From assembly GCA_002067365.1 (NCBI GenBank), contig MVRK01000105.1, positions 1 to 39,925 of the forward strand: 39,925 bases of DNA. The letters are read 5' to 3'. Made by a program: the position numbers and the translations under genes. The notes beneath the pieces were generated by a model, which saw nothing but the letters and a program-made list of their open reading frames with translations, did no database searches and had not been told where the DNA came from. How positions within the stretch are numbered: the stretch's first letter is position 1; each line of letters starts with the position of its first letter. Shown one piece after another: positions 22,264 through 26,712 of this stretch. The DNA comes from Methanosaeta sp. PtaU1.Bin060. GTDB taxonomy: Archaea; Halobacteriota; Methanosarcinia; Methanotrichales; Methanotrichaceae.

Positions 22264-23385
22264 CTATCCGCAGTGCTCCGGGCCCGTTGAATACGGCCTG
22301 TTCTCCCTCAGGGCCCATTCCATCTCTGCCAGCGTCGGCTCGATCCTGCCGCACTCGCGGTACCTGCGGGCCATCAGCTCTGCCAGGCTGCCCTCCTCGA
22401 TTCGCTTTGCGACCAATGGCAGGTAGCGCTGCTCCTCCTCTGTGGCGCTCCTCAGGGCGGCCCTGTAAAGCTGCTCCAGCTCAGGCCTCAAGCCCTGGAC
22501 GCCGTGCCGCATGGCGGTCTCCAAGAGGCCTCGAAGCACCCCCTCGTCCTCTTCAAGCTCCAGGTCGCTATGCAGCAGCGCCAAGAGAAAGGCGGTGACG
22601 GCCATATCCGAGTGCAGGCACTCCTGTTCATCTATGGCCTTAACCTCCAGACACCTCCTCGTGAAGCGCACTATCACTCCCCGGGAGTTCACCCATTCCC
22701 TGCATAAGATGTCGGCCCCACATGCCTTCAGTTCGGAGTAGATGCTGCGGTTTATGCGGATGTAGTCGTCTATGCTTTCTAGACGCTCGGGCAGGATCTC
22801 GTGACAGATCTGGGGCATCCTTGCCTGGTTTTCGCGGTAGTAGACGAGCCTGTTGTCCATATAGCCAGTCAGATGACCCTCCACCATCGGCGAGGAGGCC
22901 GAGACTGCCACCAGGTAGGGCATCAGCGCGCGTATCCTGTTGAAGATCTGGGCGATCTCTTCATTGCTCTTATAGGGTATATTGATCTGCAGAGCCTGGA
23001 TGTTCAGCCAGCCGTGCTGCTTTATATCGAAGAGCCGATCGTAAGCATGGTAGTACTCCTGCTCATCATGATCCCAGTAGGTCGTCTGGTCCAGTCTCAG
23101 GAGGGGATGCATCCCGAGCCCCAGGAACTTGTATTCGTAATTCAGAGCCCTATAAATGCTCGATAGGCCCTGGAAGAGGGATTCTTCGAGGAAGCTCAAT
23201 GTGCCAGGCTCCGAGGGTATCAGCTCTATCACATGCTTCTGCAGCTCTTTTGAGACCTTGATTCCGCCGAACCGAACCTCATGCTCCAGCGCCCCGCTGA
23301 TCCTCTCGATGATCCTATCGGAGATGGGCTGCGGCCTCCAGTCTGCGTCGCTTATGGAGTACTCGTGCTCTGTGCCTATCTTCAT
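22264..23385 (-). CDS. GCS2-type glutamate-cysteine ligase homologue
   Basis: Carboxylate-amine ligase of the GCS2 (glutamine synthetase-like) family, 373 aa. It opens with the strand KIGTEHEYSI, where the Glu residues hold ATP-bound magnesium. ELIPSEPGTLSFLEESL, LGMHPLL and INIPYKSNEE follow, and the basic VNSRGVIVRFTRRCLEVKAIDEQEC matches the family's C-terminal substrate and metal region. Family members attach a glutamate gamma-carboxyl to an amine such as cysteine. Methanogens generally lack glutathione, so the product here may be different. It lies 15 bases after the cysteine-cluster gene, and close to a RimK-like ligase, so a shared peptide-forming role is possible. Confidence 0.85.
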   Translation of the reverse strand: MKIGTEHEYSISDADWRPQPISDRIIERISGALEHEVRFGGIKVSKELQKHVIELIPSEPGTLSFLEESLFQGLSSIYRALNYEYKFLGLGMHPLLRLDQTTYWDHDEQEYYHAYDRLFDIKQHGWLNIQALQINIPYKSNEEIAQIFNRIRALMPYLVAVSASSPMVEGHLTGYMDNRLVYYRENQARMPQICHEILPERLESIDDYIRINRSIYSELKACGADILCREWVNSRGVIVRFTRRCLEVKAIDEQECLHSDMAVTAFLLALLHSDLELEEDEGVLRGLLETAMRHGVQGLRPELEQLYRAALRSATEEEQRYLPLVAKRIEEGSLAELMARRYRECGRIEPTLAEMEWALRENRPYSTGPEHCG

Positions 23386-23400
23386 GACCTTCGCCTATCA

Positions 23401-23928
23401 CTATGCGATCTCTTTTTTGCCATCTCCGCCCGGCCTCCAGTCCTTCAGCCTGATCTCTGCCACCAGCTCAGTCTCAGGCTCCTCGATCTTCAGGACCTCC
23501 TCCAGCTCGGGGCCAGGCAGGGCCTTCACCAGCTCCACTATCTTCCCGACGGAGATCTCGAAGAGACCATCGTAGATCTCTTTGTTCTCCTTCAGGAGCC
23601 GGACCATGGGGCATATGCTCTCCTTCTTCAGGAAGATCTGCAAAATTGAGCCTTTCATGTCGAATGTGAAAGGCCCTGCGACGCAGGTCTCCGGCTTGAT
23701 GGAGTGAATGCTGCACCTGCCTTCCTCGAAGAGCACACAGAAGCCATCGGGCTTCAGACGCAGCCTGTGGTATCCTGCAAACTCCACCTGTTCAGGGCTG
23801 ACTCCGCCGGCCAGCAGCGTATCTATCCGCTCTTTTGTCAGGGGCGGCCTGGCCTCGAAGCAGCAGCCTCCCTCAAGGAGGCATTCTTTGCATGCCTTGC
23901 CCAAAGCTGAAGCTATGGATTCATCCAT
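23401..23928 (-). CDS. YkgJ-type cysteine-cluster protein
   Basis: A 175-aa protein of the YkgJ/Fe-S or zinc-chelating cysteine-cluster family. Conserved cysteines are in CKECLLEGGCCFEARPP, GFCVLFEEGRCSIHSIKP, ETCVAGPF and SICPMV, so eight or so Cys are in family position. The C-terminal 50 residues are acidic and probably variable. Function of the family is unknown; metal binding is inferred from the cysteines. GTGAGATGATG lies just before ATG 23928. It heads the unit that continues to the GCS2 gene, and perhaps to xseAB. A TATA-like CTATTAATATC is at about 24046-24056. Confidence 0.87.
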   Translation of the reverse strand: MDESIASALGKACKECLLEGGCCFEARPPLTKERIDTLLAGGVSPEQVEFAGYHRLRLKPDGFCVLFEEGRCSIHSIKPETCVAGPFTFDMKGSILQIFLKKESICPMVRLLKENKEIYDGLFEISVGKIVELVKALPGPELEEVLKIEEPETELVAEIRLKDWRPGGDGKKEIA

Positions 23929-24120
23929 TGAAACATCATCTCACGAAATTCGATCAAATACCGACTGAGGGTTCTGATAAAAGCCATGATGCCATCTCCA
24001 GATTTTCCGCACCTCGATGAAAAGAGACCCGATGCGAATGCAGATATTAATAGATCTCCCGGATTAACAGATCGCCCTAGACCTTCTCATTCGAAGCAAA
24101 GGAAAAAAGATTATGCGGGC

Positions 24121-25149
24121 CTACCTCTCCGAGAAGTCGATTTTGTACAAATAGGCATCGTTCTCCATCATGGCATACTCCTGAGGGATGACGGCGGACG
24201 AGCCCAGGCCATACTCGCCCTTGATTCCATGGGGGCCGTAGACCTGGTCCGAAAGCACCTCAACCTGGGGGCAATTGTCGCCAGACGTCAGGTAGGTGAT
24301 GATCTTGCGAAACATGTCGGGGTAGTGGGAATCCTCTCCGCCTTCCAGAGATGGATTGTCATTGACCTCGATGACGTAGAGCTTCCCGTTGCTCTCCTTT
24401 ATGTCAACGCCGTACAGCCCGCTGCCTATCGCCTTTCCTGCAGCGATTCCGAGGGAGACGACTTCGGCGGGCACCTGGTCGGCAGGAACGCTCTCGACAT
24501 CGCAGTAGACGATGTGGCCGTTGACGGAAGCCTGGATCTTGAATGTCTCCGAGGGTATGATGTACCTGCAGGCATATAGCAGCTCACCATTCAGCACCCC
24601 GATCCTCCAGTCGAACCTGCTCTCGATGTACTCCTGGGCCACAATCCAGTCTGAGAGCTTGAAGAACCTCTTCGCCGTCTTCAGCAGCTCTGAGATCGTG
24701 GATACCTTCTCCACGCGAACCGAGAAGGAAGTAGACGGCTCCTTCAGCACCAGGGGTGATCCGAGGTCCCTGAAGAGCCGCTTGGCCTGCTCTGGTCCAA
24801 ACTCCTTGTTTTTCAGGAATCTGGTATTAGGGATGGAGATGCCCTTCTTCATGAGATGCATGTACATGTTGATCTTATCTGCACAGATCTGGATGGAGAG
24901 GGGATCGTCTATCACTGGCACCCCATAAAGGCTCGCGATCTTGGCTGCCACATATGTCGCGTTCATCGGATCTGTATTGGCCCGGATGAACAGCGCATCC
25001 AGCTTCGGTATTTTCTTGATGTCCACGGGAAAGATGAACTCCACTGTGTGGCCCATGCTCTCCCCCACGTCCCTGCACTTGACCAGGGCGGTCAGCTGCT
25101 CAGAGCTGCTCAGAGTCTGTCTATTGACGAAGATGCCTAGCTTACTCAA
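24121..25149 (-). CDS. RimK-like ATP-grasp ligase
   Basis: ATP-grasp carboxylate-amine ligase, 342 aa, related to RimK, CofF and MptN. The pre-ATP-grasp region (about 1-110) has LFIRANTDPMNATY and VIDDPLSIQICADKINMYM. The ATP-grasp fold has LVLKEPSTSFSVRVE, WIVAQEYIESRFDWRIGVL, and the metal-binding C-terminal GVDIKESNGKLYVIEVNDNP with Asp, Glu and Asn. The TTG start overlaps the upstream RLAN gene by 8 bases, so the two proteins are coupled and probably act together; in many organisms they are one fused protein. Alternatives such as glutamylation of F420 or of a pterin cofactor cannot be excluded, but their enzymes are near 290 aa and lack an RLAN partner. Confidence 0.9.
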   Translation of the reverse strand: MSKLGIFVNRQTLSSSEQLTALVKCRDVGESMGHTVEFIFPVDIKKIPKLDALFIRANTDPMNATYVAAKIASLYGVPVIDDPLSIQICADKINMYMHLMKKGISIPNTRFLKNKEFGPEQAKRLFRDLGSPLVLKEPSTSFSVRVEKVSTISELLKTAKRFFKLSDWIVAQEYIESRFDWRIGVLNGELLYACRYIIPSETFKIQASVNGHIVYCDVESVPADQVPAEVVSLGIAAGKAIGSGLYGVDIKESNGKLYVIEVNDNPSLEGGEDSHYPDMFRKIITYLTSGDNCPQVEVLSDQVYGPHGIKGEYGLGSSAVIPQEYAMMENDAYLYKIDFSER

Positions 25150-25795
25150 AGCGATTCACCCTCTTGTTCAGAAGGTCCTGTAACATCTCTGTTTCGTCCT
25201 TGGATAATTGCGAATAATTTGCTGGCGCTATGGCTGAGAGGCGGTAATGACCCTCATCCCTGACCAGCACCAACTCCACCAATGGTACCCTGAATACCTC
25301 ATAGACCCTCTCGGCGAGGGATGACACATTCTCGCAGCAGTTGATGGTCTTGCCGAAGATGGAGATGCATTTCGTGATCTGTGAGGTGTCGCTGATCTTT
25401 TGGTAGCAGAAGGGATACCTGCCATGGTTGGTGATGTGCTTGATTGCGGTCTTCGCGCCTTCTGTGTCCCGAACCACGAAGTAGTCCGAAGGGGTGGAGA
25501 AGTAGTTCAGACCATAGACTATCGCCGGAAGAGAGACGTACTGCTCGGATATAGTCCAGTCGCAGACTGGAATGCCTGCAAGCTTCGCCTTTTCCAGGCA
25601 TATGGGAACTATGTAAGCGTCCAGAACATCGCTGCTGCTCGGCGTGGTCTTGACGCCATCGTTCTCGTTCTTGACTATGGTGTAGTAGGGCTCAGTCTTG
25701 TAGAAGTAATTCTCATTAACTATATATTGAGAGTCATCTTCCTTCAAGGTATACATTATATCCTTTTTCAGAACATGATCTTTTCGTTTGTTCAT
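25142..25795 (-). CDS. RLAN (RimK-like ATP-grasp N-terminal) domain protein, stand-alone
   Basis: A 217-aa soluble protein that I match to the RLAN domain, an alpha+beta region normally found fused before a RimK-like ATP-grasp. Recognisable parts are the YIVNENYFYKTEPYYTIV beginning, LEKAKLAGIPVCDWTI, FSTPSDYFVVRDTEGAK and the C-terminal VFRVPLVELVLVRDEGHYRL, with AIAPANYSQLSK after it. In other genomes RLAN-RimK fusions occur in predicted pathways making or attaching peptides; no product is known. Here the domain is split off and sits directly upstream of its partner with an 8-base overlap. Identification rests on pattern memory plus that context. Confidence 0.75.
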   Translation of the reverse strand: MNKRKDHVLKKDIMYTLKEDDSQYIVNENYFYKTEPYYTIVKNENDGVKTTPSSSDVLDAYIVPICLEKAKLAGIPVCDWTISEQYVSLPAIVYGLNYFSTPSDYFVVRDTEGAKTAIKHITNHGRYPFCYQKISDTSQITKCISIFGKTINCCENVSSLAERVYEVFRVPLVELVLVRDEGHYRLSAIAPANYSQLSKDETEMLQDLLNKRVNRFE

Positions 25796-26244
25796 TTAGA
25801 TCATCACCGCTGGACCAGCGCGTGTGAAAATAGACATGAAAGTGGGATGAAAATCGCTCTCCTTAGGTCCCCTCTGAGGCGATCTTGAGGATTTTGCTGC
25901 TCTTGAATCCCTACGGTATTTGCTGAGACTACGGTGCCTCTCAGGCTCCGCGGCATTTTCATTCTCAGAAATTTGGATCTCCTCTAAATGCTAATACTTA
26001 TTGGTAGTATTTATCCCTGACGACCTGAGGGCCTGAAGGCACGAGCCAGAATGATCCTTGCTGAAAGATCAACGTTCTGATTGCTAGCGATTTCGATAAA
26101 TCGCATATGAGGCTGGAGATGCCGTATGGCGAAGCTCGTCGCCTCCATGCCGATCGATGTAAAATCGTCGAACAAGGTCGTCTGATGCTGGAGGAATGTT
26201 TAAATTCAAGAAAACTATTAACCTTTTTTAAGGATGCCGGCACA
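25796..26244. other. Intergenic region with probable promoters, no gene seen
   Basis: A 449-base gap between divergent genes. TATA-like elements include ACTTATTGG/AGTATTTATCCC (about 25995-26016), and TTTAAATTC (about 26199-26207) lies some 40 bases before ATG 26245. The open frame upstream of 26245 has no family features and is not called. Confidence 0.5.
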
Positions 26245-26712
26245 ATGAAAAAAATTATCGTATCTATTATTATAATAATTGCAATGGGATGCTGTGTGCA
26301 CGCCATGAAGCCCTATTATGGCAGTGTGATCAATCAATGGGACAGACAGTTCGAACTTGGCAGAGGAATTGATCACTATGTCATCCTGGGAAAGGAGAAG
26401 CCCACGACTCTTGAGCTGAGCCGACTGCCGAAAAGCGCTCCGCCTTACAGGCCAGCGAATCTCGATGAGGTGGCAGCATCGAAAGAGACAGCTCATTTTG
26501 AGCAAAATACAATACAGAAAGCATCATCATCAGGCGGAAATAGTCCACAGATTTCCTTCATCGAGGCCGAGGAGCCTGCCGCCCTCATGGAGTTTCACCG
26601 CCTCAGCTCTCTCGCCCAGAATTTCATGAATCTGCCCTGCGAAGAGGAACTCTTTCGCTCATCTGATGTTTGGAGATCCATTGGGACCTCTCCAAGGTCT
26701 TGCGGTTGCTGA
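26245..26712 (+). CDS. Small secreted hypothetical protein
   Basis: A 155-aa protein with a strong signal peptide, KKIIVSIIIIIAMGCCVHA, and a cleavage site near residue 20. The mature part is polar, Ser/Glu rich and has no recognised domain; it ends FRSSDVWRSIGTSPRSCGC. A longer open frame runs upstream to 26107, but the Lys-Lys-Ile signal start at ATG 26245 is clear. It ends 5 bases before the convergent scpA. Function unknown. Confidence 0.65.
   Translation: MKKIIVSIIIIIAMGCCVHAMKPYYGSVINQWDRQFELGRGIDHYVILGKEKPTTLELSRLPKSAPPYRPANLDEVAASKETAHFEQNTIQKASSSGGNSPQISFIEAEEPAALMEFHRLSSLAQNFMNLPCEEELFRSSDVWRSIGTSPRSCGC

Follow-up and report, generated by a model that had tools for sequence, protein, structure and literature searches.

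Four neighbouring genes in a contig from Methanosaeta sp. PtaU1.Bin060 (GenBank assembly GCA_002067365.1, contig MVRK01000105.1; the whole stretch analysed, 39,925 nucleotides, is referred to here as the window) belong to a set whose order and strand are kept across genera and orders of archaea. The genes lie on the minus strand between positions 22264 and 25795 and encode, in order, an RLAN protein, an ATP-grasp ligase, a CxxCxxCC cysteine-cluster protein of the YkgJ type and a ligase of the GCS2 fold. Their linkage is real and far beyond chance. We judge the chances to be evenly balanced that the four act as one functional unit: a pathway in which two ligases form amide bonds, resembling glutathione synthesis in plan but relying on other enzymes and probably yielding another product. 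A preliminary description of this DNA had placed two ligases of different folds, a YkgJ-type protein and RLAN on one strand here, and all four genes were found as placed:

25142-25795, minus strand: RLAN protein, 217 amino acids (PF14401, 34.7 bits, cut-off 25)
24121-25149, minus strand: RimK-type ATP-grasp ligase, 342 amino acids, TTG start, predicted to be active (PF08443, 45.8 bits, cut-off 21)
23401-23928, minus strand: CxxCxxCC (YkgJ-type) cysteine-cluster protein, 175 amino acids, predicted to bind metal (PF03692, 36.5 bits, cut-off 23)
22264-23385, minus strand: GCS2-fold carboxylate-amine ligase, 373 amino acids, of a distinct subfamily (PF04107, 139.8 bits, E 1.6e-40, cut-off 21)

The RLAN and ATP-grasp genes overlap by 8 nucleotides, a gap of 192 nucleotides separates ATP-grasp from YkgJ, and YkgJ is followed by GCS2 after 15 nucleotides.

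Conservation of the four-gene set

An alignment of the GCS2 protein was scanned against 84,980 species genomes, and the best 80 matches, all of them archaeal, were taken as named loci. They came from Methanothrix and its relatives, Methanoregula, Methanolinea, other Methanomicrobiales, Methanomassiliicoccales, one Candidatus Methanoperedens and Archaeoglobales. All four genes were present together on a single strand at 59 of these best 80 matches; 55 of the complete loci had the order seen in the window, and the other four, from Archaeoglobales, had GCS2 preceding YkgJ. Many of the other loci end at contig borders, and five loci of the Methanoregulaceae type lacked YkgJ. Where larger Methanotrichaceae regions were fetched, the four genes adjoined one another in every case (11/11). 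Outside the class of the window the same order recurred in genomes of families f16 and f25, and in the Archaeoglobus-like family f9 the genes formed two neighbouring pairs. The preliminary description had proposed co-occurrence as a check, and all four genes were indeed found together across Methanotrichaceae, Methanoregulaceae/Methanolinea and Archaeoglobales. It had also expected carriers in Methanosarcina, but the set was absent from the Methanosarcina-like genomes sampled. In a sample of 150 genomes from the class, the GCS2 gene was found in 39, every one from the window's own family, and RLAN lay about 2-3 kb from it on the same strand wherever one contig carried both. Within Methanotrichaceae, GCS2 and RLAN were found in none of the 11 genomes sampled from genera g4 and g8.

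Presence and absence of the genes were also coupled across a sample of 393 genomes of the phylum. The GCS2 subfamily occurred in 51 genomes; 48 of these also had this YkgJ subfamily, which was found in none of the 342 genomes without GCS2. RLAN and ATP-grasp were present in 50 of the 51: the Pfam profile detected RLAN in 40, alignments of RLAN and ATP-grasp recovered both in 10 of the 11 others, and the sole GCS2-positive genome without them is 73% complete. The corresponding Fisher p values over the 393 genomes, about 1e-58 for YkgJ with GCS2 and about 3e-37 for RLAN with GCS2, are inflated by shared ancestry, and we therefore rely more on two further observations. One concerns four Archaeoglobus-like genomes (G204, G228, G293 and G301), in which GCS2 lies on a separate contig from the other three genes and all four have been retained. 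At the Candidatus Methanoperedens locus (L208), GCS2 branches with Methanoregulaceae (support 99/90), whereas RLAN and ATP-grasp share 74-79% identity with their counterparts in other genomes of the genus (g22); searching with PF04107 gave no GCS2 in 8 of the 9 other g22 genomes. The end of this GCS2 gene abuts the resident ATP-grasp gene with 0 bases between them. Judged by its sequence, the locus looks like the outcome of a transfer of GCS2 and its subsequent re-association with a resident RLAN/ATP-grasp pair.

The two ligases and their proposed partner proteins

None of the NCBIfam models for RimK, LysX, MptN, CofF, glutamate-cysteine ligase (GCL), YbdK or EgtA reached its cut-off with the ligases of the locus, and both ligases therefore represent unnamed subfamilies. 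The GCS2 protein scores above the gathering score of PF04107 and its structural model (predicted local distance difference test score, pLDDT, 91) has the GCS fold, matching YbdK and plant glutamate-cysteine ligase with template modelling (TM) scores of 0.73-0.75; at E < 0.001 the PDB matches were solely GCS-fold and Pup-ligase-type proteins, in contrast to those of the RLAN model described below. The best NCBIfam score was 47.2 bits for TIGR02050 (cut-off 176.4), and TIGR02048 gave 27.2 (cut-off 249). Five acidic residues that we assign, by analogy, to the GCS active site are kept, E6 and E8 being nearly invariant and E47, E54 and E247 invariant. The archaeal family has a lysine, K249, where E. 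coli YbdK and a relative from Legionella have arginine. At the C-terminus (positions 22264-22290 in the window; loci L158-L203), nearly all Methanothrix sensu stricto loci encode a Cys-Gly dipeptide (RCG, SCG or GCG), which is absent from other genera and may be incidental.

The ATP-grasp ligase was assigned to the RimK-like superfamily by its PF08443 match and its catalytic Lys, Asp and Glu-x-Asn residues. PMC4431377 gives the superfamily active site as two lysines, an aspartate and Glu-x-Asn, and K92, K136, R182, D249, E261 and N263 were invariant in 28 relatives of the protein. In the nucleotide loop the glycine-rich motif is replaced by a loop of the PSTSFSxRVEK type. Its nearest solved relatives are ArgX/LysX (ArgX, 3vpb) and RimK (7qyr), and the NCBIfam scores were 78.5 bits for RimK (TIGR00768; cut-off 143.4), 64.4 for LysX (275.6), 63.8 for MptN (350) and 34.2 for CofF (300). 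The Methanotrichaceae proteins end in a variable tail of about 50 residues (24121-24290 in the window) with a conserved (Y)KIDF(SER) terminus, missing in other families, which looks like a docking peptide beyond a flexible linker.

RLAN was recognised as a PF14401 match, covering only positions 83-149 of the profile, that adjoins a RimK-like ATP-grasp gene. Its AlphaFold model (pLDDT 90) gave 425 PDB matches at E <= 0.001, and the top 50 were all ATP-grasp enzymes; the best was ArgX (E 3.7e-9), with LysX, RimK, PsnB and Ddl also matched, at TM scores of 0.5-0.6. One low-probability profile-profile (hhalign) alignment of RLAN with ATP-grasp was collinear over 223 columns, the whole length, and in that alignment RLAN had no counterparts of the catalytic lysines, the aspartate or Glu-x-Asn. 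The predicted structure suggests that RLAN is probably a pseudo-ATP-grasp partner subunit whose catalytic residues have apparently been lost. In bacteria RLAN and ATP-grasp occur as a single fused protein, which argues that the separate archaeal proteins form a complex. Should the fold be confirmed, a domain so far defined through its neighbour alone would become an ATP-grasp pseudoenzyme, and its constant pairing would have a reason. The RLAN proteins of Methanoregulaceae (L158-L237) carry long, variable N-terminal extensions and, in most cases, a conserved QEFL end.

The YkgJ protein was identified by its match to PF03692 together with the cysteine cluster; C13, C16, C22, C23, C64, C72, C82 and C106 were invariant in 22 relatives. 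A profile search for solved structural relatives gave nothing meaningful. We considered it as a carrier resembling LysW and rejected this, as its C-termini are not conserved and there is no conserved acidic C-terminus.

Proposed function and alternatives

Glutathione is likewise made by two amide ligases that differ in fold, and the usual substrate for activation by GCS-fold enzymes is glutamate; together these points favour a small product of the gamma-glutamyl type. Such a conjugate is, by analogy, our best inference for the product, with about an even chance of being right. In the pathway that we propose, GCS2 would convert a carboxylate into an acyl phosphate and couple it to an amine; precedent in the family points to the gamma-carboxylate of glutamate. 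Working in complex with RLAN, the ATP-grasp ligase would either form a second amide bond on the GCS2 product or supply the substrate of GCS2; RLAN, as a degenerate ATP-grasp subunit, would position the substrate or regulate the reaction, and YkgJ may serve as the metal-binding cysteine-cluster partner of the GCS2 step. A bolder form of the proposal, which we offer tentatively and think less likely than not to hold, is that a pathway so far unrecognised is common to Methanothrix, Methanoregulaceae and Archaeoglobales and leads to a new peptide or conjugate of the gamma-glutamyl type; its enzymes would be a GCS2-fold ligase, constantly partnered by the cysteine-cluster protein, and a heterodimer of ATP-grasp and catalytically dead RLAN.

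Several observations weigh against a single pathway of this kind. RLAN and ATP-grasp occur without GCS2 in Methanocella-like and Methanoperedens-like genomes and in one f25 genome, and Methanomassiliicoccales loci have YkgJ and GCS2 without adjacent RLAN and ATP-grasp, so that each pair may act alone; the four-gene unit is thus two tight pairs, RLAN with ATP-grasp and YkgJ with GCS2, that are usually combined. GCS2 falls below all of the GCL and YbdK equivalog cut-offs, and its substrate may therefore not be glutamate or cysteine. A protein substrate would also be in keeping with the kinship between the ATP-grasp ligase and ArgX and RimK. Finally, hhalign gave a probability of only 2.7-3.0% for RLAN against ATP-grasp, a relation seen in structure only.

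Because the closest kin of the ATP-grasp ligase are enzymes with protein substrates, the main rival explanation is that the set modifies a protein, with RLAN and ATP-grasp adding amino acids to a C-terminus or side chain, GCS2 adding or preparing a tag, and YkgJ being either the target or the recogniser of that tag. ArgX, LysX and RimK, the nearest solved relatives of the ATP-grasp ligase, all act on proteins, the Pup ligase PafA is among the GCS-fold ligases matched by fold, and YkgJ, which is small and conserved, occurs only where GCS2 does. However, no carrier with an acidic, conserved C-terminus was found in the operon, the ends of YkgJ itself not being conserved, and the ATP-grasp ligase scores under the RimK-family cut-off; on balance we think protein modification unlikely, though a serious contender. 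A strict glutathione-type thiol pathway, in which GCS2 would make gamma-Glu-Cys, ATP-grasp would add the third residue and YkgJ would handle the thiol or a metal, appears improbable. It would account for the combination of a GCS-fold and an ATP-grasp enzyme, as used in glutathione synthesis, and for the closeness of the GCS2 model to YbdK and plant GCL. The glutamate-cysteine ligase gene AF2307 of A. fulgidus, which we infer to be the GCS2 gene of genome G248, is also raised more than 2-fold on CO (PMC4543118), the sole expression result found. Against it, the GCL and YbdK models score far under their cut-offs (TIGR02048, 27 vs 249), the linked ATP-grasp has no match to the GshB family, and the archaeal K249 contrasts with the arginine of the E. 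coli and Legionella proteins.

A third proposal, that the ligases extend the side chain of a C1 cofactor (methanofuran, F420 or methanopterin) with glutamates or end groups, is very unlikely because relatives are carried in Methanomassiliicoccales and Legionella. Methanomassiliicoccales are not known to have methanofuran or methanopterin. Most of the methanogen genomes in the sample, the Methanosarcina-like ones among them, also lack the set, although most carriers are methanogens or Archaeoglobales. As of 2021, the ligases that attach the further glutamates and end groups of methanofuran had yet to be identified (PMC8141765), which would leave room for such a role. At one Archaeoglobales locus (L235:4618-6413) the genes directly upstream of RLAN encode CofE, the F420 gamma-glutamyl ligase, and an additional ATP-grasp protein, but CofE was not found at the other Archaeoglobales loci.

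The two-ligase pathway to a small conjugate would be of wider interest, as Methanothrix is a major biological source of methane. The conserved set is also present in a genome that is likely to be that of Archaeoglobus fulgidus. If the product is a peptide-like metabolite, the archaeal RLAN/GCS2 pair would acquire a job, with a bearing on how thiols, metals or stress are handled by methanogens without glutathione.

Flanking genes

Among the neighbouring genes, only these four travel together. Linkage to xseA, xseB, scpA and smc was seen in the window genome only and in none of the 11 Methanotrichaceae regions fetched, and is therefore incidental, as the preliminary description had suspected for xseAB. 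An orphan reading frame (26107-26712, plus strand) separates the set from scpA in the window; from an inner start it would encode a small, secreted-looking protein with a hydrophobic N-terminus, MKKIIVSIIIIIAMGCC.

Directly upstream of the set, 9 of the 11 Methanotrichaceae regions (L062, L063, L064, L065, L066, L068, L069, L071 and L072) have a gene for a DUF255/DsbH thioredoxin-domain protein of about 700 residues; the exceptions are L067 and the short, incomplete L070, and the window also has no counterpart. We did not include this gene in the set: it recurs in Methanotrichaceae, but the flanks are unrelated in Methanoregulaceae and Archaeoglobales. In some Methanomassiliicoccales (L204:6429-7298) a gene for an APH-type phosphotransferase separates the shared upstream flank genes from YkgJ-GCS2, and in the relatives L191 and L193 the ATP-grasp gene adjoins GCS2 at the same position.

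Comparison with known systems

Glutathione and gamma-glutamylcysteine synthesis (GshA with GshB; YbdK; EgtA) likewise pairs an amide ligase of the GCS fold with one of the ATP-grasp type, but the locus has RLAN and YkgJ in addition, no GCL, YbdK or EgtA model at cut-off and no GshB domain. The linked ATP-grasp matches RimK and not GshB domains, the search for GshB having been confined to this gene and not extended to the rest of the genome. As far as the sequences tell, the four-gene set is not glutathione biosynthesis as known. With the RimK, LysX, ArgX, MptN and CofF ligases the ATP-grasp shares the RimK domain PF08443 and the K, D, E-x-N pattern of the active site; it differs from RimK, LysX, MptN and CofF in its scores below cut-off, its PSTSFSxRVEK-type loop and its constant RLAN partner. 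The YkgJ protein has the diagnostic cysteine cluster of CxxCxxCC proteins (PF03692) and forms a distinct subfamily found, in the phylum sample, only with this GCS2.

The preliminary description had called the system undescribed, and this stands in part. The literature that was searched, which did not extend to a 2009 survey of amidoligases, yielded no description of the archaeal four-gene operon with its own YkgJ, of its distribution or of the RLAN fold. However, a pairing of RLAN-RimK with GCS2 is also found in bacteria, and Iyer et al. reportedly surveyed amidoligase neighbourhoods of this general kind in 2009. That survey is cited in PMC8939145 and PMC4431377. Our plasmid searches recovered a single GCS2-bearing relative, on a plasmid of Legionella adelaidensis (NZ_LR134436.1), where a fused RLAN-RimK gene immediately precedes genes for a relative of GCS2 (33.7% identity, E 9e-42) and for an N-formylglutamate amidohydrolase. 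This cluster resembles the archaeal set in joining RLAN to a RimK-type ATP-grasp next to GCS2, and differs from it in the fusion, in having N-formylglutamate amidohydrolase and DUF4332 genes in place of YkgJ, and in the arginine that replaces K249. The general kind, ATP-grasp and GCS2 in one neighbourhood, is thus already known, and the archaeal form is a variant of it.

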